The position numbers and the translations under genes are program-made. From assembly GCA_946183415.1 (NCBI GenBank), contig CAMHAM010000004.1:82470-146469 (forward strand): 64,000 nucleotides of DNA. Direction: 5' to 3'. Below, in pieces: positions 31,508-46,675 of this stretch. The notes beneath the pieces are model-generated. The model had not been told where the DNA came from and made no database searches. It was given only the letters and a program-made list of their open reading frames with translations. This stretch comes from an uncultured Prevotella sp. (GTDB lineage Bacteria; Bacteroidota; Bacteroidia; Bacteroidales; Bacteroidaceae). Within the stretch, counting starts at the first letter, position 1; every line of letters begins with the position of its first letter.

Positions 31508-31706
31508 CACAAAACCGATATCATTCAACTATTTATGAAGAAAACCATCATTTTTCTGACATCGAGAACATACGGGTAGACGGGTTGAAATGCCGTAAGG
31601 TCAGACAAGCTGCATTGGTATTGCAAGGTACCAAGCAGAAGCCGTACCCACACAAGTCACAGCCAAGGACAACCTTTTTGGAAACGACAAGTAAAGTTAT
31701 ATCTTA
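31508..31706 (+). pseudogene. Remnant gene: 5' leader and start (MKKTIIFLTSRTYG*) fused to a 3' tail
   Basis: CACAAAACC(G/T)ATATCATTCAACTATTTATGAAGA shared with leader at 46805; early stop. Confidence 0.5.
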
Positions 31707-34207
31707 ACGCCGATACTGGCGAGGAACCAGCGACCCTGCTGGGGGATAAGGTTCGTGTTCATGCCGCTACGGTTGTAACGGGTACCAAGGAGGTTGTGGA
31801 TGTTCAGGCCGAACGTGACAGGTCCCAATGTATATTCGCCTCCCAGATCGATGATGGCACGGGGTGGCATATCCTTATGCATGATGATGTAAGGAAGGAG
31901 TGCCGATGCTGCATCTCTGGCGGCCTTGACTCCATTTTCATCGTTTCTCTCTCCACAATCATAGGCTTTTACATATTCTTTCATATATAAAAGAACATTG
32001 TTGAGGTCAGTGTTGTAACTCGTCTGTTTACCCTCGAAAAGGAGGTGTGAGTGGAGCTTCAGACGGGGTGTAACCTGCCATCCTAGCACAAGGTTCGACA
32101 TGATGGCTGGTGTATTGTTATTGGCATCAATATCTGTTGTTTCATCAATTAATTCAAGCAACTTGCCCAGCTCCAAGCCCATGAGATTCGACTTAAAGGT
32201 GTTCGTCCAAGTGAGGTTAAAGTCAGCCGTAAACCTCGACAGCCTATAACTGGCCATCAGTTCTACGCCACAGGTTTGGTTCTTACTGGCATTCTTGTAA
32301 TCCAGGAGATGAGTCATGATGAGATCGCTGGCACGGTTATAGAAACCGTTGACCTCAAAATTCAAGCCTTTACTCCAGTTATTTCCACTAAAGGTGAGTT
32401 GGAAGGAATGGACACGCTCGGGCGAAAGATCGAAACCATTTGAAATTGGGCCAAGTTTCAACATCCACAAGGTACGGTAAATATAAGGTGCATCGACAAA
32501 CGATTTTGAGTAACTGAGTTTCAGGTTCCACTTGGGTCGCAGCAGGATCAAAGCAATTCGCGGTGACAACTCATTGACTTTACTATCGTCTCCGCGCAGC
32601 TTATAGTCGTAACGCAGTCCAGCGTTAAGGATGATCGATCGCCACTGGTGCTTCAGCTGCAGATAAACGTTGGCACTATTCTCGTTGTCCTGCCCTATCA
32701 TATACGTCTCAGGATCATCTCCAAATATGTTCACAAAGTCATAGCCTATATGATAGCGGATGTCATCAGAACGGAAGTGAGCATACTCTGCTCCGAAACT
32801 AATGTTGCCATGATGATCGATGCCCATCTTATAAGCATAGTTGCCCTTCAACTGGACACCGTAGTTCTGTTCCTGTCCGTTCAGGTAATTTGATAAACCA
32901 CCGTTTTTGGTAAACAAGGAGTCAATCTGTGGATTTAGGCCGAGCGCTGTGCCCAAAAGGGGAATCGGACTATCGCTGATGACCTGATAACGTGTATAAT
33001 CCGACTTATCGAAGGTAACGTCATACTGGAGATTCAGGTTTCCTAACTGGTGACTGTAACTCAGATCGGCATGGTGTGTGTAGTTGCTAAAACTCGGTCT
33101 CAAACCGTTGAACGTGCGGTATCGCTCTCTGTCGTATCTCTGCGCCAGCGATGTCATGGTGTAAGGTGCCACTTTCTGTGAGAAGTGCGTATCATACATG
33201 AACTGGAAACCTTTCCAGTCAACCTGCACGCCGAAGTCGTAGGTGGGGTGATCGCCGATGCGCCCCAGACGGACGAAATCGTCGCCATACCGTTCACCGC
33301 TGTTACGATAGCCACTACCCCAAACAAGCAGATCGACGTCGAAGTAGCGCTTGCCGAAGACGGCATCAACCTTCACCTGGCCATAATTACCTGCTGACAG
33401 CTTAGCCTGAAGACCATCGACATCGACACCCTGTTTGGTGATGATATTCACCACTCCCGTCAGTGCCACCCCCCCGTAGAGCGACGAAGCAGGGCCACGC
33501 AGCACCTCAATCTGCTTCACCTTCTCCAATGAGATACTGAAGTCGGGAGCTGCCGTATTCGTGGCATAGCTATTCAGGCGGTGACCGTTGAGCATGATGA
33601 GAATCTTCTCCTGTGTATTGCTATATATGCTACGCATACCAATGTTGATATCATCGTTGCAGTCAATCAGGTTCATGCCAGGCACATAGGCTGCCAGCAC
33701 CTCCTGCAGGTTACGGGCACCGCTAGTCTGAATCATCTCTGCCGTGATGAGCGTCGTAGGCACAGGCACCTCTGCCAGACTCTCTGCCTGATTGGACGCC
33801 GTGATGATGGTTGGAGTCATGCCTGCCTTGATATTGTTCACAATTTCTACGAAGGTCGCAGGGTCTTGTGACGACGGACTGTAATATGGGTTCTGCTCCA
33901 ACAGCCGTGTCACATACTGTTCGGTATGAGGGATATCATATTCGACCAAATAAGTAAGAGCGATCAGATGGAGTGCATTCTGACGCAAATTCCCTTGAAA
34001 GTTAGTGAGGTTTTGCAACAGCACATCCCGCGTTTGCTCAATGCGCCCCACCTTGTAGGCACTCTCTGCCTGAGCATACACTTCGCGCATCTTCTCACTG
34101 TCTTGCGCGGAAGCACTCATGTTAGTGAATAGCGAAAAGTAAATAGTGAATAGTGCTGCGCACAGCATCATTCTCCGTGATTTTTGTATCGTTGACTTTC
34201 CTCTCAT
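31697..34207 (-). CDS. TonB-dependent outer membrane receptor
   Basis: Plug domain (LAEVPVPTTLITAEMIQTSGARNLQEVLAAYVPGMNL), VLRGPASSLYGGVALTGVVNIITK. Confidence 0.93.
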   Translation of the reverse strand: MRGKSTIQKSRRMMLCAALFTIYFSLFTNMSASAQDSEKMREVYAQAESAYKVGRIEQTRDVLLQNLTNFQGNLRQNALHLIALTYLVEYDIPHTEQYVTRLLEQNPYYSPSSQDPATFVEIVNNIKAGMTPTIITASNQAESLAEVPVPTTLITAEMIQTSGARNLQEVLAAYVPGMNLIDCNDDINIGMRSIYSNTQEKILIMLNGHRLNSYATNTAAPDFSISLEKVKQIEVLRGPASSLYGGVALTGVVNIITKQGVDVDGLQAKLSAGNYGQVKVDAVFGKRYFDVDLLVWGSGYRNSGERYGDDFVRLGRIGDHPTYDFGVQVDWKGFQFMYDTHFSQKVAPYTMTSLAQRYDRERYRTFNGLRPSFSNYTHHADLSYSHQLGNLNLQYDVTFDKSDYTRYQVISDSPIPLLGTALGLNPQIDSLFTKNGGLSNYLNGQEQNYGVQLKGNYAYKMGIDHHGNISFGAEYAHFRSDDIRYHIGYDFVNIFGDDPETYMIGQDNENSANVYLQLKHQWRSIILNAGLRYDYKLRGDDSKVNELSPRIALILLRPKWNLKLSYSKSFVDAPYIYRTLWMLKLGPISNGFDLSPERVHSFQLTFSGNNWSKGLNFEVNGFYNRASDLIMTHLLDYKNASKNQTCGVELMASYRLSRFTADFNLTWTNTFKSNLMGLELGKLLELIDETTDIDANNNTPAIMSNLVLGWQVTPRLKLHSHLLFEGKQTSYNTDLNNVLLYMKEYVKAYDCGERNDENGVKAARDAASALLPYIIMHKDMPPRAIIDLGGEYTLGPVTFGLNIHNLLGTRYNRSGMNTNLIPQQGRWFLASIGVKI

Positions 34208-34213
34208 AACTAT

Positions 34214-36985
34214 TCACTTTTCATTATTCACTTTTAACTTTTCACCTTTCACTTTTGGCAAAGCAACAGTAACCTCTGTGTATTCGCCCTGAACTGACAC
34301 GACGCTGATATCACCCCCATGATTCTGGATAATCTCACGACTGAGGTATAGACCTACGCCCGCCGCCTCACCTGTAGGCTTGGTGGTGAAGAAGGGGTCG
34401 AAGATTTTGCTGAGATTCTTTTCTTCGATACCGACGCCGTTATCGTGGATCTTCAGGATATATTTCTCATCGGCGACGATGGCAGTGAGACGGATCATGG
34501 GGTCAGCGAGTTTGTCCCCATGATTCTTCTGCGTTTTCTTCACCACGGCATAGACGGCATTGTCCAAAAGATTGATGATGGCCTTGCTGAGCATATCCGG
34601 GTTGCCGTACAGAGGCATCGTGTCTTCTGGCAGATCAAAGGGTGTCTGGATGCCATACAATTCCTTCTCCTTGGTGTAGCGTTTAGCAAGTTGTTTCTCA
34701 ACCTGTTGCACAACTGGTAACAGATGGATATTGCCGTAGCCACCTGTACGATCCTTCAGAACATCCTCCATCGCCTTGAGAATACGAGTGGTGTTCTGGC
34801 CAAACTGATTGACCGAAGTCAGGTTCCTAGTCAGCATATCCAGCACGTCCAACGTATCCTCATAGTCGTTTTCGTCAATCTGCTCCTTGTTATGATCGAT
34901 ATTCTCCTTGAGGTCTACCAACAAATCGCTCGACATTTTGGAGTAGTTGATAATATAGTTCATGGGGTTGAGAATGCGGTCGACAAGTCCCTTGGTCAAT
35001 TTACCCACAGTAGCCATCTTCTCCTGGCGGATCAACTCGTGCTGTGCGTTGCGGAGGTCGGCAGTGCGTTCCTCTACGATGCGCTCCAATTTGATCTTGT
35101 CCTTCTCCAACCGTTTCAGGCGATATCGGAACAAGAGATAGATCATGCAAGCAAAGATGATGAGGTAAAGCACCAACATATACCAGCGCATCAACAGCGG
35201 ATAGGCAATGCAGAAATCAACGGTAGCGATCTCCGACAATTCCCCATTAGCCAATTGCGCCTGCACGGAGAGCGAAAACATGCCGTATGGCAGATTCAGG
35301 AACTCAACATCCTGCTTGTCGGTCCATGCACTCCAATGCCCCCCAGAAGAAAATAGGCTTTTATTGTTCAGACGGTAACGATAGAGCGTCTGGCCTGTCA
35401 ACGGTGCATAATCGAGCGCATAGAAGAAATGCAAATGTCCTTCGTCGCTATCTAATTGATATACATTATTGGGCATATCCCCATATCCGCCCCAAAGCAC
35501 ACTGTCGTTACCCATCACAATGGAGCAGAAACGCAAACGACGACTCTCTGATAGCTTCACAAGGTCTTTCTGTCCCATATCGATGACGGCAAGTTTTTCG
35601 TCACCCCCGATCCACAAATGGTCGCCATGAAGGTAATGGGTTCTGATCTTCATGTCGCTGAGGGGCTTTAGAAATGAAGAGTGAAGCTTGAAGAGTGAAG
35701 AATCAGCTACGGTGGGAACAGAACCTATGGTTTCGCCATTAACATTCTGGAACCAGAGATTACCTTGTTCGTCCTTCCCCATCTTCGTCACCAGTGGCAA
35801 CTCGTTTATCTTCCTCTCCCGTTCCATGGTCCATCGTCCATCATCCATCACATAAAGTTGGACACCATCAGGCTCACCAGCATAGACCTTATCACCATCA
35901 ACAAACATCGACGTGGTGGCATAAGAAGTCAGTCTGCTGCCCCTGCCATCTGCCGTAATTCTGTAGATGCCGCTGGAAGTAGCCACCAAAAGCGCATCGC
36001 GACTCTCGCAAAGTGCCCAGCAGATATTGCTGACGTCGGCCACGCGTTTATACTGCCATGAGTCGACCACATGAAGTCCATTGGTATCACCGACATAAAT
36101 CTTTCCGTTAAAGGCAGCGATGGCCAGCACCTTGCCAGTCAATCCGTCCTTTGGCAGGAAGTAACTATAGATAGACGGCAATTCAATGGCAAAGATGCCG
36201 TTTGCCGTAGCACCCCATAGCACCCCGTGGCCGTCATAGGCGACGTAGGCCACCTGATTAGAGCAGAGGCCATTGGCTTCTGTGATGGTATAGAGTTCAC
36301 GCCCTATGCTGTCTGCTATAATCAGACCGCCATTTCTTTTCACCTTCACTTGAAGACCACCGTCCAGTTTTTCTGTCTGGGTGATATCTTTCAAGATGAC
36401 ATCTTCATCAGACGCTCGCAGGGCCTCCAATGATACGACATCTGACTCCACGCCTGAACGGAACTTAACGTTGGTGTGTTTCAACAACGAAACGGTGGTA
36501 TCACGAACTTCGTAGATATTATTGTCACCAGCAACAAACTGCAGCGAAGCCCCCTCTTCATAGATTTCCATGACCTCACCAGCAAACTGGCCTTTCCGTC
36601 CAACCTGTTGCAAGTACAGTTCACCATTAGTACGCTTTCGCAGACGGGCCAGATAATCCAATCCACCCACCCAAAACGTATTCTTACTGTCGCGATAGAC
36701 CACTGTGGCACGTCTGAGTTCAGGTGCATGGATGATGCGCCACTGGGCACGGTCGTAATAGAGCAGTCCGTCAAAGTTACCCACGAACACCGTACCGTCC
36801 TCTCCAATCTCAACGTCGAAGTTGATGTTGTGGCCTCCATACTCTGCCGGCGTATAGTTCCGGATCAAGGGAAGACACTGCGCTGAAGAGGTGAAAAGTG
36901 AAAGATGAAAAGTGAAAAGTATTAAGAATGCAGCCTTAAGCAACATCCTACCTATTTTTCGTATGATATTCGTTCTACAACTCAT
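34214..36985 (-). CDS. Sensor with propeller + Y_Y_Y + TM + HATPase domain; H-box His replaced (GLVDRILNPMNY)
   Basis: Propeller repeats, TM, QEKMATVGKLTKGLVDRILNPMNYIINYS, N-box NLLDNAVYAV, DNGVGIEEKNLSKIFDPFFTTKPTGEAAGVGLYLSREII. Confidence 0.9.
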   Translation of the reverse strand: MSCRTNIIRKIGRMLLKAAFLILFTFHLSLFTSSAQCLPLIRNYTPAEYGGHNINFDVEIGEDGTVFVGNFDGLLYYDRAQWRIIHAPELRRATVVYRDSKNTFWVGGLDYLARLRKRTNGELYLQQVGRKGQFAGEVMEIYEEGASLQFVAGDNNIYEVRDTTVSLLKHTNVKFRSGVESDVVSLEALRASDEDVILKDITQTEKLDGGLQVKVKRNGGLIIADSIGRELYTITEANGLCSNQVAYVAYDGHGVLWGATANGIFAIELPSIYSYFLPKDGLTGKVLAIAAFNGKIYVGDTNGLHVVDSWQYKRVADVSNICWALCESRDALLVATSSGIYRITADGRGSRLTSYATTSMFVDGDKVYAGEPDGVQLYVMDDGRWTMERERKINELPLVTKMGKDEQGNLWFQNVNGETIGSVPTVADSSLFKLHSSFLKPLSDMKIRTHYLHGDHLWIGGDEKLAVIDMGQKDLVKLSESRRLRFCSIVMGNDSVLWGGYGDMPNNVYQLDSDEGHLHFFYALDYAPLTGQTLYRYRLNNKSLFSSGGHWSAWTDKQDVEFLNLPYGMFSLSVQAQLANGELSEIATVDFCIAYPLLMRWYMLVLYLIIFACMIYLLFRYRLKRLEKDKIKLERIVEERTADLRNAQHELIRQEKMATVGKLTKGLVDRILNPMNYIINYSKMSSDLLVDLKENIDHNKEQIDENDYEDTLDVLDMLTRNLTSVNQFGQNTTRILKAMEDVLKDRTGGYGNIHLLPVVQQVEKQLAKRYTKEKELYGIQTPFDLPEDTMPLYGNPDMLSKAIINLLDNAVYAVVKKTQKNHGDKLADPMIRLTAIVADEKYILKIHDNGVGIEEKNLSKIFDPFFTTKPTGEAAGVGLYLSREIIQNHGGDISVVSVQGEYTEVTVALPKVKGEKLKVNNEK

Positions 36986-36995
36986 TCCACATTCC

Positions 36996-38534
36996 TCATT
37001 CCATTTCTCTATACGGTATTCCCTTCCCTACGTAATAGTCCCACTCCTCCTGAGTGAAGTTGCGTTTTACGTTCTGACGGAGCCGCTGGGCAATCTTCGG
37101 CAGGGAGATAAGGTATTGGGTGACGACACCATTGTACTCGCCCGTCAAGATATAGTCCTTGTCGTTGCTAAAGGTAAAATCGGTCAGCCAATTGTCTGAT
37201 TGATACAGCGTAACTGCCTTGAAATAGGTGCTGCCCTCAATAGGCCAAAACAACAGTTTACCGTCATAGCTGGATGAGTAGAGACGCTGTCCGTTAAACT
37301 CCAATCTAGTTACGCGTGACAGATGCTCTACAAGCTTGTAAGTCTTGCCCATTCCATCGACCAGCCAGATCGTCCCGTCGGCCATGCCATAAGCTGCAAG
37401 ATCTTCTTTCCTGCTACTGGCATAGGCTGTAACCTTGCCGCTCGCAGGAACCTTCTCGGTGGTCATGTTATCCAGACTGTTCACGAGGTGCATATTTCCA
37501 CGATTGTCAAAGAGCAGTGGCTTGTTGTCACGTCGGCCAATACTTGTAGCACGAAAGTTGAGACGGCGCGATGCTATCACCTTATCAGTAGCGACATCAA
37601 AGAGAGCAACGCTCTCCTCGCCAACGATCAGCAGCCTTTTGCCATCGTTCAGGGCTTGAAGGCCAAAGGGCTTGATGACTGTTTCCAAATTGACGACACG
37701 CGTCTGTCGACCGTCGGTAATCACCAGGTGACCAGTACAACTGAGGGCATAAACTTTCCCCATAGGGGAAGCGAAGACATCGCAGAACCAATATCGCTTA
37801 TCGTTCAGGAGCGATGTTGTCTGAAGCTTTCCTCCCTTCAATTGGTGGAAGAACAGCTCACCAAAGGTACTTACCGAGAACAGACGGCCATCATGAGGTA
37901 ATAGGTAAAGACGCGTGATGTTGCCATTGTGACTATTCCGACTGAGGCGAGCGCCTGCAGATTGCGTCAGGGCCTGAAATACGGTGGGAGAATAGAGGTT
38001 GCCACCGTAATCATGGGTATAGAGGTAGGAAGCATACGCCAGCATATTGCCCAACTCTGTGTTGCCGGTCTGGTAGATCGAATATGATAGAGAACCAAGC
38101 GTCCTGCCTAATGAGATATAGTTCAGCGTATCAGTCACCATCCTGGCATGCTCTGCATTGAGTCGCTGGCGTTCCGCCATCTGATATGACGCCAACGCCT
38201 CAGCAGCTGAAGTTTCTGCCTCAGCCTGAGCCTTCAGGGCTTTTTGGCGCTCTGCTTCTGATCGGATGGTGGCGGCCTTTGCTATAGCCGACTGTCGGAT
38301 AGCTTCCTGGCTGCGCTCCTCTGAGAGTGCCTGCTGACCGTGGGCGATGATCTCCATCTGTTCGCTCACACTACGGTCTAGTTCTGAGTTTAATCCTTGT
38401 CGCTTGAGTGCGGTGACTTGCGCCTCTAATTCATGGATGCGGTCGTTGTCGCCATGACGTGTACTTATCAGCCACGCGCCCAATGCCAGCAACAGCCCTA
38501 CCAAACATCCTATGATCAACCTCTCACTCTTCAC
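36996..38534 (-). CDS. Membrane-anchored WD40-like repeat protein with coiled coil
   Basis: N-terminal TM, Ala/Glu-rich coiled coil, repeated beta-propeller-like segments, NVKRNFTQEEWDYYVGKGIPY end. Confidence 0.75.
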   Translation of the reverse strand: MKSERLIIGCLVGLLLALGAWLISTRHGDNDRIHELEAQVTALKRQGLNSELDRSVSEQMEIIAHGQQALSEERSQEAIRQSAIAKAATIRSEAERQKALKAQAEAETSAAEALASYQMAERQRLNAEHARMVTDTLNYISLGRTLGSLSYSIYQTGNTELGNMLAYASYLYTHDYGGNLYSPTVFQALTQSAGARLSRNSHNGNITRLYLLPHDGRLFSVSTFGELFFHQLKGGKLQTTSLLNDKRYWFCDVFASPMGKVYALSCTGHLVITDGRQTRVVNLETVIKPFGLQALNDGKRLLIVGEESVALFDVATDKVIASRRLNFRATSIGRRDNKPLLFDNRGNMHLVNSLDNMTTEKVPASGKVTAYASSRKEDLAAYGMADGTIWLVDGMGKTYKLVEHLSRVTRLEFNGQRLYSSSYDGKLLFWPIEGSTYFKAVTLYQSDNWLTDFTFSNDKDYILTGEYNGVVTQYLISLPKIAQRLRQNVKRNFTQEEWDYYVGKGIPYREME

Positions 38535-39694
38535 TTCCTTTTCAGAACTAACATAGTGATATCATCATTCTGTTCCGTATCGCCAACAAAGGCGTTGATA
38601 CCAGTCTTGATACCTTCGATGATCTTCTGGCTACTATTGCCTATTTGTCCACCAAGGACAAGGTCCAAGCGCTTACTGCCAAACATAGACCTTCCCCTTA
38701 TGGCCTCAGTCACACCATCAGTAAACATCACAAGCGTGTCACCATGTTCCAACTGCAGGGTACTCTCTTTATAATCCGAACCTTCTTTCAAACCTAAGAC
38801 CATGTTCTCAGGAAGGGGCAGTTCTTCGGTTGTGCCGTCAACCCGCAATACATGAGGCGGGATATGCCCTGCGTTGCAATAGGTGACGAGACCTGTCTTG
38901 GTATTGTAGACAGCATAGAAAACCGTGACGAACATGTAGTCAAACGAGTAGGAAGCCAACATGTGGTTCGACTCTGCCATACACACTCCCGGACTATCAT
39001 ATTGTATGCCCTTCGTACGGATAACGGTGCGGCTGACAGCCATATAGAGGGCAGCGGGAATGCCCTTGCCACAGACGTCGGCTATTACCAAGGCGATGCG
39101 GTCATCATCGATGCGGAAAAAGTCGTAGAAGTCGCCGCCGACATCCTTCGCTGCCTCCATCGATGCACAAATGTCTAGCTTGTCACTGTCTTCTGGGAAT
39201 GGCGGGAATACGCGCGGTAGGATAAACTGCTGAATCTGGTTGGCAGCGGCCAGGTCTTTCTCCAGCCCCTCCAGCTTCTTGTGCTCCTTCTGCGACTCAT
39301 GTACGAAGTCAATCTGACGGATGGCCTTCTCGATGGTGCGGGCAAGGTCGTCCATATCGATGGGCTTGGTTGCGAAGTCGAAGGCACCGTCGTTCATTGC
39401 CAGGCGGATATTCTCCAAGTCACCATAGGCACTCACCATGATGACGCGCTGAGCCGGGTTTTGCATCTCATTCACCTTGGACAGCATGGTCAGGCCATCC
39501 ATCTCAGGCATATTGATATCGCAGAGGATAATGTCGATGTCGGGATGGTCATTCAGCACAGCGAGCCCCTCCACACCAGTGCTTGCGAAGAAGAACTCAT
39601 ATTCGCCACTGCGGATCTTCCTTCTGAAATATTGCTTCATCAGGAATTCGATCTCTTCCTCGTCGTCAACGCTCAATATCTTTCTTACAGTCAT
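38531..39694 (-). CDS. Response regulator with SpoIIE/PP2C phosphatase domain
   Basis: ILSVDDEEEIEFLM, IILCDINMPEMDG; DVGGDFYDFFRIDDDRIALVIADVCGKGIPAALYM, MFTDGVTEA. Confidence 0.93.
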   Translation of the reverse strand: MTVRKILSVDDEEEIEFLMKQYFRRKIRSGEYEFFFASTGVEGLAVLNDHPDIDIILCDINMPEMDGLTMLSKVNEMQNPAQRVIMVSAYGDLENIRLAMNDGAFDFATKPIDMDDLARTIEKAIRQIDFVHESQKEHKKLEGLEKDLAAANQIQQFILPRVFPPFPEDSDKLDICASMEAAKDVGGDFYDFFRIDDDRIALVIADVCGKGIPAALYMAVSRTVIRTKGIQYDSPGVCMAESNHMLASYSFDYMFVTVFYAVYNTKTGLVTYCNAGHIPPHVLRVDGTTEELPLPENMVLGLKEGSDYKESTLQLEHGDTLVMFTDGVTEAIRGRSMFGSKRLDLVLGGQIGNSSQKIIEGIKTGINAFVGDTEQNDDITMLVLKRK

Positions 39695-39715
39695 CGCTCT
39701 TTCATCAACAGAAGA

Positions 39716-40387
39716 TTATTGATTGGTACTTTCAAGCCGTTTCAGTCTTTCTTCACCCTGCTTGGTAAGCCACTTCATGTGACCTTCTTCAATTTCCTTG
39801 AGTTTCTCGTTGTATATCTTATCACGCTGCTCGTACCAGGTTTTTGTCTGTTTTTCGCGGGCTTCCTTGACCTTCTTGATGTCTTCGTCGCTCTCACCCT
39901 CAGTGAGCTTGGCAAGCTTTGCGTCGTATTCGGCAGAGACGGCTTCCATCTGAGCCTTATTCTCCTCATAGAACGTTTTCGCACCGTTCTTCAGCACGTC
40001 ATAGCGGTCATCATCTACCTCAGGCATAGTCACATTGATATAATGTACATCATGCATATCAGGATTGTTCTCATCGGTAGAGATATCCACCTGCATCGTC
40101 TTCATCTCCTGCTTGAACTCAGGGTGATCCATAAAAATGGCTTGAGCCAGTGCGGGAATATCACCGTCGTAGTTAGGATACACCTGGAAGCTGAATTCAT
40201 CTTCCTGTCCTATCTGTGAACACGCTTCAAGTTTCTGAGGTTCACCCTCAATCATGGCCTCTATCGACAACAGCGATACGGGCTCTGCCTTCACGCACAG
40301 ATTCATCAGGCGATAGGCAAACTGGGCATTCAGCGTACTCAGCGCATCGCCCAGCATATCAAACTCCTTTATGATTTCTCTTTTCAT
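39716..40387 (-). CDS. Conserved hypothetical; C-terminal helical part loosely resembles ribosome recycling factor
   Basis: ORF in operon; VTMPEVDDDRYDVLKNGAKTFYEENKAQMEAVSAEYDAKL... Confidence 0.6.
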   Translation of the reverse strand: MKREIIKEFDMLGDALSTLNAQFAYRLMNLCVKAEPVSLLSIEAMIEGEPQKLEACSQIGQEDEFSFQVYPNYDGDIPALAQAIFMDHPEFKQEMKTMQVDISTDENNPDMHDVHYINVTMPEVDDDRYDVLKNGAKTFYEENKAQMEAVSAEYDAKLAKLTEGESDEDIKKVKEAREKQTKTWYEQRDKIYNEKLKEIEEGHMKWLTKQGEERLKRLESTNQ

Positions 40388-40415
40388 ATCTTTTCTCTTC
40401 TCACTTTTTCACTTC

Positions 40416-42386
40416 TCACTCCTTCGGCGCGTCCTCATTCTTCAGCTTCGTGCTCAGCTTGCTGCCGCCACTGGCGCCGCCCATGGCCATACCGTCGCTG
40501 ATATTTTTCGACTTGAAGGCACTCTTGGCCTCGACGCTGTCGCCAACCACCTTTGGTGCCTTGAGCTCGTCCTTCACCTCGGTCTTGCCGTTGATGGTGG
40601 TTTCACCATAGACCTGCGTCTTGCTGCCACCCACAGCAGCATTGCCACCGTCGAGCTGAACCGCAGCCTTGCCCTCGCCTTGCTGCATCTCCAGCGTCTT
40701 GTCGGCAAAAGCACCGATCTCTTCCGAAACCGTCTGAACCTTTTTGCTCTTCACATCCTTCGACTTGGCACCCACGTACATCTTTTCTGATACCAGGGTC
40801 ATTGTGCTGCCAGCAGCAAGCTTGGAGTCAGTAAGCTTCTCCTTGTCGACATCCATCGACTTCACGTTCACTGCCTTGGCATTGAGGTTGATGCTACCCG
40901 TAGCCTTGCCCTCAGTATCAGCTGCAATGACAGTCGTCTTCTCCGTGCGGATACCCAGTTTACCATCCTTCGTCAGAGCCTTCGTCGACAGCTTGCCGTC
41001 CTTCACCTCATAATCGAGGCTCTCGACGGTGACAGTCTTCGAGCGGATGATCACATCGCCCTCACCCTGGTATTCACCCTTGATGAGTTTGCCCTTCTCG
41101 TCGCGCTCGATGCCCTTCGGGTTGGCAGTCGATACCTCGACTGTCTTGGCGCTCATGGTGATCTTACCCTCCTTGGTGAGTTCCTTCTCCCAGAGCTGAT
41201 TCTTGTCGTTCATCTTATAGTCGATGGCCTCGAGGTTGATATCCTTCGACTGGATCTTCACCTTGCCTTCCATAGGCCATTCCTTGCCCTGATCCTTCGG
41301 ATTCACCGTGTTGAAAGTGATGTCCTTCGCACTGACGGAGAAATAGCCGTCCTTGACAAGGGCGCCCTGATCATCGTGCATGTTCAATCCCATACGCGGA
41401 GTCCTGACGCTGATGCCGGCACCAGGATTCGTATGCAGGTTGCCGTCGCCATCAGCTGTGGCGACACTGATACGCTCAGCCACTACCGACATCGAGGCAC
41501 CTGTGCTCTTCTTCTTGAAGTCGTCGCCAGTCTTGATGGTACCCTTCTCCTTCTCCAGCGCCTTCTTGCGGCGGTTCACCTCTGCCAGCTCCGACACAAG
41601 GTCGATAAAGGTCTGGGTGGAGCGATAGACCGACGGCATCAGGGCCTCCATCTGCTCATGAACCTTACTGATGTCGGTAAGGTTGGTGAAGGTGCTGTGA
41701 TCTTTCGGGGAATTCAGCTTTTCCTCCTTCTCAGCCAGCTTGATCATATCCTGTAGGAATTTGTCCACTGCCTTCTTCTGGTTCTCCACACTTTTCTTCA
41801 GCTCCTTACTCTGAGTATCGAGTCCCTTGATGACATCCTCGATCTGCTTCTTGCGCCGCTCGGCTGTGACGGCAGCCTCAATGTTGAATCGCTGGTCGGC
41901 ATGCAGGCTGATGCCGCCACGACCAGCATGTAGAGGCAACTGTGAGAACTCACCCTTGGCATCGCTGCTGTGGAGCACGATGTCGCAGGCCTGCGATACG
42001 ATCTCCGATGAGTCGCACACCACGTTCTCATGCCCATCGATACCCGGATTCACAGCCTTCTGATGGATGATGGGCGCACGGCTCACGATACGCCCCGTCT
42101 CTCCGACACCCTCTAAGGACACATCGCTGCCCTTGATGACTACAGTACCCACATAGCCACCGTTCAGGGCACCGCTCTTGTCCACGTTACCTATCACAAT
42201 CTCAGGGGCAGAGATCACGATACGCTCATCATCGTGATAATAGGCACCACGATCCAGACGATCAAAGATATCCGTCTTGATCTGCTGCACCTCAGCCTTC
42301 TGCTGGTGCATCTCCTCAACGCCCTTATCTACGCATTGCTGGAATTTCTCCAGCATTTTCTTCCATTCTTCAAATATATATGCCAT
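40416..42386 (-). CDS. Beta-helix-like repeat protein, VgrG-linked
   Basis: Repeated ITMSAKTVEVSTANPKG / VIIRSKTVTVESLDYEVKDG / INLNAKAVNVKSMDVDKEK segments; operon with VgrG. Confidence 0.65.
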   Translation of the reverse strand: MAYIFEEWKKMLEKFQQCVDKGVEEMHQQKAEVQQIKTDIFDRLDRGAYYHDDERIVISAPEIVIGNVDKSGALNGGYVGTVVIKGSDVSLEGVGETGRIVSRAPIIHQKAVNPGIDGHENVVCDSSEIVSQACDIVLHSSDAKGEFSQLPLHAGRGGISLHADQRFNIEAAVTAERRKKQIEDVIKGLDTQSKELKKSVENQKKAVDKFLQDMIKLAEKEEKLNSPKDHSTFTNLTDISKVHEQMEALMPSVYRSTQTFIDLVSELAEVNRRKKALEKEKGTIKTGDDFKKKSTGASMSVVAERISVATADGDGNLHTNPGAGISVRTPRMGLNMHDDQGALVKDGYFSVSAKDITFNTVNPKDQGKEWPMEGKVKIQSKDINLEAIDYKMNDKNQLWEKELTKEGKITMSAKTVEVSTANPKGIERDEKGKLIKGEYQGEGDVIIRSKTVTVESLDYEVKDGKLSTKALTKDGKLGIRTEKTTVIAADTEGKATGSINLNAKAVNVKSMDVDKEKLTDSKLAAGSTMTLVSEKMYVGAKSKDVKSKKVQTVSEEIGAFADKTLEMQQGEGKAAVQLDGGNAAVGGSKTQVYGETTINGKTEVKDELKAPKVVGDSVEAKSAFKSKNISDGMAMGGASGGSKLSTKLKNEDAPKE

Positions 42387-42400
42387 AATCCTATATCTTT

Positions 42401-45400
42401 TTAAATTTCTCTTAACACGTCCTTGATATTATTGAGGAAGGTCGTAATTTCTTCAACAGCCGCAAAATTTCCCACTTTAATTAATGGTTGGATTGTCTCA
42501 ATTTTATTCATGGTGGCATTATTACCCCTACCATCCACAGAATAGGTGTTATTCCCTGTTCCAAAAAGGATCTGGCCTTTATTACCATCACTCCAAGAAC
42601 ACTTTTCCTGATAAGCCTTCTTGAGGTTCATTGCTGCGACACCTTCCTTCATTGGCTTTACGAACGCATCTTTGAGGGCACCTCCCAAAGATGGAGATGG
42701 GGCGTCTTCACTCTTAAGTTCTGGCACCGCTTTGAGGCTGTTGATAAAAGCTACCCATACACTAGCATCAGAAATATTATCCATTGTTGGCTTTTCAGGT
42801 GGCTGCTGAGAATTTTCTGCATTTGCCCGTTTCTGATCAAGCTTCATTCCTTCAATCAAATTCAAACAGGCAAACCTCTTATATTTTGATATAATTTCAT
42901 CACCAACATTAATGGATCCACTTAAGGCCTTGTCAATAGCAGAGTTATCGAACATTATAAATTTGTTACATTTTCTCTTACTAATAGCATCTAACAATTT
43001 CATCTTGGAATCCTTAGGCGCGGTAGTCCATCGGAAGGATCCCAGAGAACTGTCAATATCCTTTTCAGTTATCTCATATTTTAGGACTTTGACAATAGCT
43101 TTCCTTAAATCATTGGCAGCTTGAAGGACAGCGGTCTTTGCTTTTTTCCTCTCTTCAATAATTTCCGCTGTTCCAGCCATCTCTGCATGGGCATTAGAAC
43201 ATTCTCTTGAAACATCTGTATCACTTACATTTTCAGCAAATCCCAGATCAGCCGATGTAATTTCTTTATCACCGCTCGCCCATAAAGTATCTTTCAAGTG
43301 ATCGAAAGACTTACAGGATTCTTTTGTCTTATCGTTTCTCCAAGCATCAAGTGCAGTAATAGATGATACAAATTGCTCTTTCTTAACTACACAATCATTG
43401 TAAAGTATTACCCAATTGTCAACCATAGCTTGAACTAATGATGGGATCTTCTGGAAGAGTTCCTTAACACCGTCGCTCGTTTTAGCAGCAACTTTCTTGA
43501 TCTCTTCTATCTTTCCTTCCGCAATCAATTTCTTCTTTACATCCAAGTTGTATGCCAATGTGGGATACTCACACGTGTTCTTGCCAGCCTCCAGTTTTAG
43601 GAAGCGGTTTGATTTCACAGTCAGTGCGCCCTCCACCGGACGCATCACAACCTCAACGACGGATCTGACGATGGATAAGTCGAGCAGTTTGGCCTTTTCA
43701 GCCACCTTGCTGGCAATGGCGGAGGAAACGGTCAATCCTAATGAGGCAGCAGAAAAGTCGCCGAACTTCTTGTCGTTGAACAGTTTCCAGCCAATATTCG
43801 TACCCGACTCAAGTTTCAAGTTATTTCCCGCCTCAATAGTGACGTTCTTACCCTTGATCTTTACATCGCCATTGGGGGCAGAAATCGTAATGCCTGTAAA
43901 AGCATCCATCTTTACATCACCCCAAGGCGAGCTAATCGTGACGTTACGCTTATCTGTTGAGCCGGAAATCTTATAGATGCCGTAATAGTCGCTCATCGTG
44001 AAACCACCCTCAAAGTATTTGTTCTTGCTCCAGACTTTATCATCTTTGAGCAGAGCGCCAAGACCCGGTATCCTATTCACAGGAACAAGATTGAATAAGG
44101 TTCCCACAGCTGGCGAGAAGGCCGAAGCTACAAAATTAGCCATTCCACCACCTGATCCGTCGGTCAGTCGCATGTGATGACCTCCCGGGGTGTCGAAATC
44201 CACATTAATGGTTGGATCACCAGGCACTTTCGTCTGTGTGGCGCCTATCACATACGGACGCTCAATATTGCCATCGATGAATCCCACCAGCACCTCGTCA
44301 TCCTTATTATGTTTACCTGTCGACGTCTTTCCATCGCCTTTGGCTGCGAAAGGCACCCAGGGTGTTGCATCTTTCACATCCGCATTGTCCTGCCAAGGGA
44401 ACACCACTCTCACTCGGTTTTTAAACGTGGGATCCGAGGCGTCTTTGATCTTAGCCATTTGCGGGCCTGAATACCTGACGTGGCCTGAAGGAATCACAGC
44501 AGGATAGAAGTCATAATAATCCTTACCGTCAATCGTTTGTTTATGTGCCCCGCTGCCCTGTACCTTGAACGTCAGTTGATTGTCTTTGTACGCTGCAGAG
44601 ATATCCACCACGATAAAACGTTCGCCATTCACCTGGATAATATTACCCAGCTTAAGCCCAGGCCAAGTGGTGTCGAAGTCGATAAAGACCATGTTCCTGC
44701 CAGCTTTCTGTTCAAGGCCGAAAGTCTTTTCATATCGTTTTGCGTCGTAGATATCATCTTTGTTGGCATAGGCAGAAGTGATTTCAGTAAACTCGTTAAA
44801 TCCATCCTTGCTCTCCGTCACATTATCATATAAGGTGAATGTATATTTGCCATACTGTTCGTCCGTGCCTTTCCCTGGGAAATACTTTTCGTTCTGAGCA
44901 TTATTAATCACTCTAGTACGATTCATCGCCAGAAGCACATTCGCGCCATCGTCAGTCAGCCTGCCGAAGGTCCATGATGGGACATTCTGGTCTGTATTGA
45001 AGAAAGAGGCAACCGTTCTCATAGCGTACTTGTCGCCTTGACCGTTAAACTTACCAAACTCAGCACGCACTAAACGAGGCGACTTCTGCACTGGCGTATC
45101 ATAAACGGTCTTGTCGTAAGCCGCTTCCGCCTCAAACTTACCATCTTTCACTTTCGACAAAAGACTTTCGCTCGTATCCTTATTTGAATAAGTGATTTTA
45201 TAGAATTTATCGACGGTCTTGACAGCATCCTGAGCATCGTTATATCCTATCTGCAACTTACCGTCCTCATAGTACATGAATTCGCCCCAGCGATTGGTGG
45301 TGCGAACCAGCAGGTCGTAGAAACTCTCGTTATACTGTACCAGATATGGGAAAATGTGTTCTACTATCTTAGGTTCTTTCTTAGTGTCTTTCGCGCCGTC

Positions 45401-46030
45401 TTTCTTGTCGTCTTTCTTGTCATCTTTCTTGTCGTCTTTCTTACTGACGTTCAAACTCTCGAACTTTAACCTCTTCATGAAAGTTGTATTGCACCCCAGA
45501 TTCTTAGAGCTGTCGTATGGCAAGGCGTATTTAGCCACTTCTTTTTCCAGGATGTCGCTTCCTAGTTTCTTCCCTACAAAGGAGCGGCTGGTCTGCTTCA
45601 GTGTCAGCATCTTGTCGAGACTAAAGATACGTAACCTCACGTTCATGCCGTCTTGCAAATATTCTGGAATCACCTCATGCACATAGAAATCATTAAAGAT
45701 TTCCTGAGCGACGTCATTTCCGTTAGCACTCATCAAACTGAGCGTGACCTTTCTGAACTTGAAAATGGTTTCAATTTTGGATCTGTCGATAGGCACCCAA
45801 TCATTCTTCGTGCTTTTGGCTATTGCTAAATCAGCTATAACTTCAACTGGCTGATACATCTGTTTTTTCATACTGAAGTTGTCGAGCGAGTAAGAATACC
45901 CGAACAACTCTGCTGTTTCTTTTTCCGTTGAAAGCGATATGGTCTCCTTCTTGCCTTCTGCTTCAGCGCATAAGTCATGCAATTTTAATTGTAGTCTTGC
46001 CATATGTGTTACCATTATTTTATTATTCAT
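42401..46030 (-). CDS. VgrG/Gp5-like spike protein with about 500-aa C-terminal extension
   Basis: NRVRVVFPWQDN..PWVPFA, NKDDEVLVGFIDGNIERPYVIGATQ, TPGGHHMRLTDGSGG, KIKGKNVTIEAGNNLKLE. Confidence 0.85.
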   Translation of the reverse strand: MNNKIMVTHMARLQLKLHDLCAEAEGKKETISLSTEKETAELFGYSYSLDNFSMKKQMYQPVEVIADLAIAKSTKNDWVPIDRSKIETIFKFRKVTLSLMSANGNDVAQEIFNDFYVHEVIPEYLQDGMNVRLRIFSLDKMLTLKQTSRSFVGKKLGSDILEKEVAKYALPYDSSKNLGCNTTFMKRLKFESLNVSKKDDKKDDKKDDKKDGAKDTKKEPKIVEHIFPYLVQYNESFYDLLVRTTNRWGEFMYYEDGKLQIGYNDAQDAVKTVDKFYKITYSNKDTSESLLSKVKDGKFEAEAAYDKTVYDTPVQKSPRLVRAEFGKFNGQGDKYAMRTVASFFNTDQNVPSWTFGRLTDDGANVLLAMNRTRVINNAQNEKYFPGKGTDEQYGKYTFTLYDNVTESKDGFNEFTEITSAYANKDDIYDAKRYEKTFGLEQKAGRNMVFIDFDTTWPGLKLGNIIQVNGERFIVVDISAAYKDNQLTFKVQGSGAHKQTIDGKDYYDFYPAVIPSGHVRYSGPQMAKIKDASDPTFKNRVRVVFPWQDNADVKDATPWVPFAAKGDGKTSTGKHNKDDEVLVGFIDGNIERPYVIGATQTKVPGDPTINVDFDTPGGHHMRLTDGSGGGMANFVASAFSPAVGTLFNLVPVNRIPGLGALLKDDKVWSKNKYFEGGFTMSDYYGIYKISGSTDKRNVTISSPWGDVKMDAFTGITISAPNGDVKIKGKNVTIEAGNNLKLESGTNIGWKLFNDKKFGDFSAASLGLTVSSAIASKVAEKAKLLDLSIVRSVVEVVMRPVEGALTVKSNRFLKLEAGKNTCEYPTLAYNLDVKKKLIAEGKIEEIKKVAAKTSDGVKELFQKIPSLVQAMVDNWVILYNDCVVKKEQFVSSITALDAWRNDKTKESCKSFDHLKDTLWASGDKEITSADLGFAENVSDTDVSRECSNAHAEMAGTAEIIEERKKAKTAVLQAANDLRKAIVKVLKYEITEKDIDSSLGSFRWTTAPKDSKMKLLDAISKRKCNKFIMFDNSAIDKALSGSINVGDEIISKYKRFACLNLIEGMKLDQKRANAENSQQPPEKPTMDNISDASVWVAFINSLKAVPELKSEDAPSPSLGGALKDAFVKPMKEGVAAMNLKKAYQEKCSWSDGNKGQILFGTGNNTYSVDGRGNNATMNKIETIQPLIKVGNFAAVEEITTFLNNIKDVLREI

Positions 46031-46532
46031 CTGTCTGTCCCAATTTCATTTGATAAACCACTACGTCGTTATTAGCAGAATATAATTCGAGCTGTTTCTG
46101 TCTGATATTCTCGAACTTTTCCTGCCACTCGGCATCGGCAGCCTCAGCATGGTCAGTCTGCCTGTTCTTGCGTTCGTCTTCAACGAAACCGATGAAGTTG
46201 CTGATGCCTGTAATCTGGAGTGTGTCGTAGATCTCTTTGGGACAATTCACAAACACGATCTTTGGTTTGTGGCCTATTTCCTGCTGAGCGAAATAGATGG
46301 TACGGATACCACTACTGGATAGAAACACCAGATCGGTGGTATCGAATACAATCTCCCTGATATCCTGACCCTGATAAGTGATCAGCATATTCTTCAGGGC
46401 ATCGGAATTGTTTACCGTCAGTTCAAAACCCAAGGTGACATGTAGGGTCGTCCCTTCCAGTTTTAATTCAAATTTTTTATCGTCCATGTTTGTAGCAATA
46501 TTGTTATTTCTAGATATAAGTGTTATCGGCAC
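46023..46532 (-). CDS. STAS-domain (anti-sigma factor antagonist-like) protein; start may be internal (MDDKKFELK)
   Basis: GFELTVNNSDALKNML, VFDTTDLVFLSSSGIRTIYF. Confidence 0.82.
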   Translation of the reverse strand: MPITLISRNNNIATNMDDKKFELKLEGTTLHVTLGFELTVNNSDALKNMLITYQGQDIREIVFDTTDLVFLSSSGIRTIYFAQQEIGHKPKIVFVNCPKEIYDTLQITGISNFIGFVEDERKNRQTDHAEAADAEWQEKFENIRQKQLELYSANNDVVVYQMKLGQTDE

Positions 46533-46675
46533 GAAGTAGTCCTTATGTCACTTTGAGGGGCAAAGTTAAACAAAAGATTTAAAACCACCAAATTTTTTCA
46601 GAATTAAATTGATGACTTTCATTATTATTTGGATTCGAAAGCAATGATATCACTCGAAAAGTAATGAATGATATT

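Follow-up and report, generated by a model that had tools for sequence, protein, structure and literature searches.

An orphan VgrG spike module of a divergent type VI secretion system, accompanied by STAS and PP2C genes, in an uncultured Prevotella

The window analyzed here is a 64,000-nucleotide stretch of an uncultured Prevotella sp. (contig CAMHAM010000004.1 of assembly GCA_946183415.1). It contains an operon of eight genes that encode, in order, a STAS protein, a VgrG-like spike protein, the beta-rich protein BHX, a ribosome recycling factor (RRF)-like protein, a receiver-PP2C phosphatase, a WD40 protein, a His-less kinase, and a TonB receptor. We assign the operon to a type VI secretion system (T6SS) as an orphan spike module, because one of the nine VgrG modules in the genome sits in a T6SS locus. 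It is fairly probable that at least nine interchangeable spike modules serve a single divergent T6SS in this genome. The reading we lean toward for the signaling genes is that partner switching gates the loading or firing of the spike, with the choice of spike made by signal; this gating probably acts after translation. An initial annotation of the sequence had proposed a self-standing, undescribed system whose spike is either assembled or released upon a signal or repurposed for signaling or surface display. The self-standing system did not hold up, since a T6SS locus that encodes sheath, tube, ClpV, and baseplate contains the same module type. Repurposing for signaling or display fell for the same reason and because a sister module encodes an Hcp-papain-fold fusion. 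Signal gating stands as a good hypothesis because the STAS/PP2C wiring is conserved across many genomes and in several gene orders; the molecular gating itself is something we infer.

The window genome spans 3.38 Mb in 107 contigs, is 87% complete, and encodes nine long VgrG proteins, each in a module. The module on contig C1 lies in a divergent Bacteroidota T6SS locus composed of ClpV, TssB, an AraC-like protein, TssC (PF17541, 335 bits), two Hcp proteins, a third Hcp-like protein, a 160-aa protein, VgrG, BHX, the RRF-like protein, and DUF4280. Further along this locus, a gp25-like TssE and a TssF homologue were recognized by comparison with G016, a genome of the same genus that has a T6SSiii; the core proteins are only 27-40% identical to those of that T6SSiii. 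The Pfam TssF model gave no hit in the genome, a false negative given that the homologue was recovered by this route, and the VipB model PF05943 missed the sheath that PF17541 detected. Candidates for TssG and TssK in the C1 locus are weak (58.7 and 73.1% probability). Of the TssN-Q-O-P-R membrane complex, TssR was found in the control G016 and was not found in the 87% complete window genome or in G020, a carrier of the same system; TssN and TssO had no Pfam match in the core locus of this incomplete genome. The initial annotation had noted the lack of Hcp, sheath, ClpV, and PAAR genes. This is true of the window operon, and all of them are present elsewhere in the genome. It had also called for a genome-wide search for T6SSiii or extracellular contractile injection system (eCIS) sheath and tube genes, which returned the T6SS core and no Phage_sheath_1 sheath. 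An eCIS was rejected on the absence of the phage-type sheath, and a stand-alone or display system was rejected on the presence of the T6SS core.

The closest described system is the Bacteroidota T6SSiii (GA1-GA3 loci; PMC4714493, PMC10781749), with which this machine shares TssC PF17541, TssD/Hcp PF17642, VgrG, ClpV, TssB, a gp25-like TssE, a TssF-like baseplate, and a PAAR-like DUF4280 in the core locus. Unlike T6SSiii, the VgrG here is twice as long, BHX and the RRF-like protein are added, there are STAS/PP2C modules, the core is divergent and encodes E1, ubiquitin-like, and E2-like proteins, and TssR was not found. In G016, by contrast, BHX, RRF-like, and STAS genes are all missing beside the VgrG genes of ordinary T6SSiii type. 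Hcp genes also occur in pairs or singly away from any spike (L066:150-1004, L067:7085-7969, and L068:6840-7238 on contigs C5, C7, and C78), and these are 89-95% identical to the core Hcp pair. The 160-aa protein (L045:8646-9128), encoded between the Hcp-like protein and VgrG, belongs to no known family and is fused elsewhere to an Hcp-like protein or to the VgrG N-terminus (in L047, L142, L144, and L147).

Profiles were built from the genome's own nine loci; every one encodes VgrG and the RRF-like protein, and eight encode BHX. Scanning public genomes with BHX recovered 79 further loci, mostly in Prevotella from the rumen or other ruminant guts and some in other Bacteroidaceae and Bacteroidales. 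Two isolates are among the hosts, Xylanibacter ruminicola D31d and Prevotella sp. ne3005, the latter with a module (L096) of the order VgrG-BHX-RRF-STAS-PP2C-DUF4280. Over the window genome and its relatives, the RRF-like gene is present in 85 of 89 BHX modules, and BHX is directly 3' of VgrG in nearly all of them. A STAS gene, counted if on the same strand and within 9 kb, accompanies 40 of 71 orphan modules versus 1 of 18 core-linked modules, and contig ends make these module counts lower bounds. Strong PP2C matches are found in 35 of the 40 STAS-bearing orphan modules and a stand-alone RsbW-type kinase in 8 (L049, L111, L113, L117, L120, L123, L124, and L150); SpoIIE-RsbW fusions occur in five loci (L109, L110, L118, L126, and L150). 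Of the 11 STAS genes in the window genome, 7 are at most 5 kb away from one of the nine VgrG genes, in regions that make up 3.5% of the sequence (p = 1.8e-8); for SpoIIE genes the count within 10 kb is 6 of 16 (p = 1.9e-4), with the caveat that the paralogues are related and the p values therefore overstate independence.

The arrangement of these modules varies. The orders PP2C-STAS-VgrG-BHX-RRF, VgrG-BHX-RRF-STAS-PP2C, and VgrG-BHX-RRF-STAS-RsbW-PP2C were all seen, and different orders occupy separate branches of the BHX tree. The window-type order, with its receiver-PP2C-WD40-kinase-TonB tail, is kept in six other genomes. The PP2C types adjacent to spikes differ in their sensors, which include receiver domains, dCache/HAMP domains, and SpoIIE-RsbW fusions. 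One frozen arrangement is disfavored because both phosphatase types and gene orders differ. The initial annotation had staked its proposal on gp27/gp5-like domains in the spike and on neighbors conserved together in relatives; the neighbors are indeed kept together, and the window VgrG has a gp5-like domain and a weaker gp27-like one.

The VgrG identity is firm. Its OB/gp5 domain scores 35 bits over the cut-off, and its profile matches T6SS VgrG structures in the PDB at 5e-27. The gp27 (0.006) and DUF2345 (0.009) matches of the window protein are both below the cut-off, and gp27 is above it in the sister VgrG of L001. The protein is thus laid out as a weak gp27-like part, OB/gp5, a short DUF2345-like beta part, and a C-terminal domain of ~400 residues that is helical by model. 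The C-terminal domain is probably structural because it is kept in all VgrG copies; it matches no fold in the PDB, and a role as effector was rejected on these grounds. BHX has no Pfam family; it is beta-rich, with a coiled-coil stretch by profile match. Its repeats make a beta helix plausible, a kinship that comparison with the VgrG profile does not support (7% probability only).

The RRF-like profile matches ribosome recycling factors in the PDB over its length (1e-10). The AF2 model has a predicted local distance difference test score (pLDDT) of 92, and its Foldseek match to RRF structures is 3e-10. The conserved arginines of the ribosome-binding RNxRR motif are lost across 70 aligned RRF-like sequences, in which D/E, A, N/S/Y, and A are the most frequent residues at the motif's positions. 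Because the predicted fold is kept while this motif is lost, the protein is likely a second use of the RRF fold. It is most likely a spike chaperone or adaptor and not a translation factor.

The active residues of the switch proteins are intact. The STAS profile matches SpoIIAA and anti-sigma antagonists in the PDB, and the phospho-acceptor, S73 of the window open reading frame (ORF), is invariant in 47 of 47 STAS proteins. The window STAS has a C-terminal tail, NNDVVxYxMKxGQ, that is conserved in 15 spike-linked STAS proteins of the long type and that nothing else encoded in the loci has; the genome's three further stand-alone STAS proteins (C6, C18, and C44) are short. The window PP2C has the catalytic motifs GGDFYD, DVCGKG, and FTDGVTE, and PP2C motifs are intact in most cases. 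The kinase described by the initial annotation as His-less has an Asp in place of the His in its H-box (GLVDRILNP), as do all six of its orthologues (7/7).

These observations suggest how the switch could work. A kinase would hold the STAS protein phosphorylated. In the window operon this would be either the Asp-kinase or a kinase encoded at another site in the genome. Upon a cue sensed by the chain of TonB receptor, Asp-kinase, WD40 protein, and receiver, the phosphatase would dephosphorylate STAS, which would then change partner and license its own spike for loading or firing. Control after transcription is favored because housekeeping-type promoters are found at 33 of 71 module operon starts (versus 3.2% of random places). 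What is shown of this model is the co-occurrence, the intact active residues, and the complete switch sets of sister modules. A broader scheme, in which one T6SS uses alternative spikes each with its own switch and sensor, loaded by an RRF-fold chaperone, with ubiquitin-like conjugation genes in the core, is tentative and, taken as a whole, somewhat doubtful.

Several points weigh against gating by partner switching. The RsbU/V/W set of the window operon has the phosphorylatable STAS serine and the SpoIIE PP2C and lacks an RsbW-type serine kinase. No recognizable effector is encoded in the window module. Approximately 40% of orphan modules are without a same-strand STAS gene, some of them cut by contig ends. 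Contact of STAS with VgrG, BHX, or the RRF-like protein is hypothetical. The receiver-PP2C-WD40-kinase-TonB cassette is also found at L192 (contig C33), with no spike gene and with an extra short kinase that has the ordinary His, and the receiver-PP2C cassette may be tied to something other than the spike. The His-less kinase cassette is a partly independent unit, because it is found in the genome without a spike gene.

The occurrence on C33, together with a copy at L193 (contig C16) that follows a BHX, is what would be expected if the signaling genes were functionally unlinked to the spike and the cassette were a hitch-hiking mobile nutrient-sensing unit. We regard this as quite improbable, given that various PP2C types with various sensor domains recur at spikes in several orders, that the STAS enrichment near VgrG has a p of about 2e-8, and that the window-type order is retained in six other genomes. 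Partner switching could also act on transcription, with RsbW-like kinases holding a sigma factor or regulator that dephosphorylated STAS releases, turning the spike genes on. RsbU/V/W sets classically give this output, and RsbW homologues are present in the window genome, four of them stand-alone. Nonetheless, a transcriptional output seems unlikely: housekeeping-type promoters stand in front of the window operon and of 33 of 71 module starts, no ECF (extracytoplasmic function) sigma factor was found near the modules in a search with a single query, and a STAS/PP2C pair for each spike makes little sense with a shared sigma factor. Use of the spike without a T6SS, for surface display or signaling, would fit an operon with a TonB receptor and no sheath or tube gene, and modules that often have no recognizable toxin. 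The same module type lies within a T6SS locus, however, and a sister module encodes, beside RRF-like and STAS genes, a fusion of an Hcp-like protein with a papain-fold glutamine deamidase toxin domain (L047:4932-6251, contig C68). At least one module therefore has toxin-like cargo, and we give display very little credence.

The PpkA/PppA/Fha threonine phosphorylation pathway adjusts T6SS firing posttranslationally by means of a PP2C-type phosphatase; it differs in its kinase class, has no STAS protein, and acts on the whole machine. Control of a T6SS by a PP2C phosphatase is already known (PMC6082577, PMC5995506). Orphan VgrG auxiliary modules are known from proteobacterial T6SSs. That of Pseudomonas ogarae F113 is similar in that its VgrG is encoded away from the structural cluster and serves a T6SS made elsewhere; it is reported to mediate bacterial killing and to be associated with other putative proteins, not switches (PMC10671463). 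In contrast, the partners here are sensors, phosphatases, and STAS proteins, and no effector is recognized in the window module. The Bordetella proteins BtrU, BtrV, and BtrW are a SpoIIE phosphatase, a STAS protein, and an RsbW-type kinase that control an injection machine, and BtrU and BtrW are thought to act on secretion itself (PMC7498569). That machine is a type III system with a single switch, whereas here a T6SS has a switch per spike module. The T6SSiii paper names TetR-type regulators and makes no mention of STAS or a phosphatase (PMC4714493). The open-access literature searched yielded no description of STAS/PP2C switches linked to T6SS spikes and nothing relevant on a T6SS with STAS, partner switching, or RRF; a review of T6SS regulation does not mention STAS, partner switching, or anti-sigma factors.

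What is known of T6SS control concerns mostly the machine as a whole. A per-spike switch, if true, would add a new level of choice, and it would allow the signal-specific use of a single machine to be tested. Such a switch would also be a candidate non-sigma-factor output for STAS/PP2C switches, alongside a second use for the RRF fold. The modules occur in rumen-type Prevotella, including sequenced isolates.

Table 1. Features of the spike operon and its promoter, in window positions.
Feature	Position	Strand	Basis
Bacteroidetes-type promoter, TTTG-N20-TAACTTTG	46561..46592	-	Motif match 5' of operon
STAS protein (RsbV/SpoIIAA-like)	46023..46532	-	Pfam STAS, 42 bits
VgrG-like spike protein, 1209 aa	42401..46030	-	Pfam OB/gp5; PDB profile match
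BHX, beta-rich spike-associated protein, central coiled coil	40416..42386	-	Own profiles; without Pfam family
RRF-like protein	39716..40387	-	Pfam RRF, 33.7 bits (cut-off 29.7); PDB profile; AF2 model
Receiver-PP2C (SpoIIE-type) phosphatase	38531..39694	-	Pfam receiver + SpoIIE, 165 bits
Membrane-anchored WD40-type propeller protein, signaling-cassette member	36996..38534	-	Domain search; order kept in orthologues
Reg_prop/Y_Y_Y-like sensor kinase homologue, His to Asp in H-box	34214..36985	-	HATPase + weak Reg_prop/Y_Y_Y matches
TonB-dependent receptor, last gene of operon	31697..34207	-	TonB plug domain; position kept in six orthologous operons

The tight eight-gene order on the minus strand (Table 1) agrees with the initial annotation in its ORF positions and in the domain searches, and the genes are spaced by 6-28 nt or overlap by 4-8 nt. 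Two of the starts are probably further in. Because orthologous STAS proteins are mostly 154-155 aa, translation of STAS probably begins at the ATG near 46487, 15 codons in from 46532. VgrG probably begins near 46003, 9 codons in from 46030, as its homologues begin at MARL. With these starts the STAS-VgrG overlap becomes a gap of ~20 nt, as in orthologues. Promoter-type sites of the kind found 5' of the operon have 8 matches in the window versus 0.93 expected.

The T6SS core on contig C1 also encodes a ubiquitin-like conjugation set, for which no match was found in the literature searched. It is composed of an E1/ThiF protein (L045:18505-19635, 174 bits), a ubiquitin-like candidate of 105 aa that ends in DPIPG/DPFPG (L071:4866-5183), an E2-like protein (L071:5203-5799) in which an HPN and a Cys are conserved (HPWHPNIRYFG.FAG.VCINM), and a lipoprotein-like protein of 819 aa that matches RING weakly (L071:7828-10287). 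The E1, ubiquitin-like, and E2-like genes are kept in about 14 core loci.
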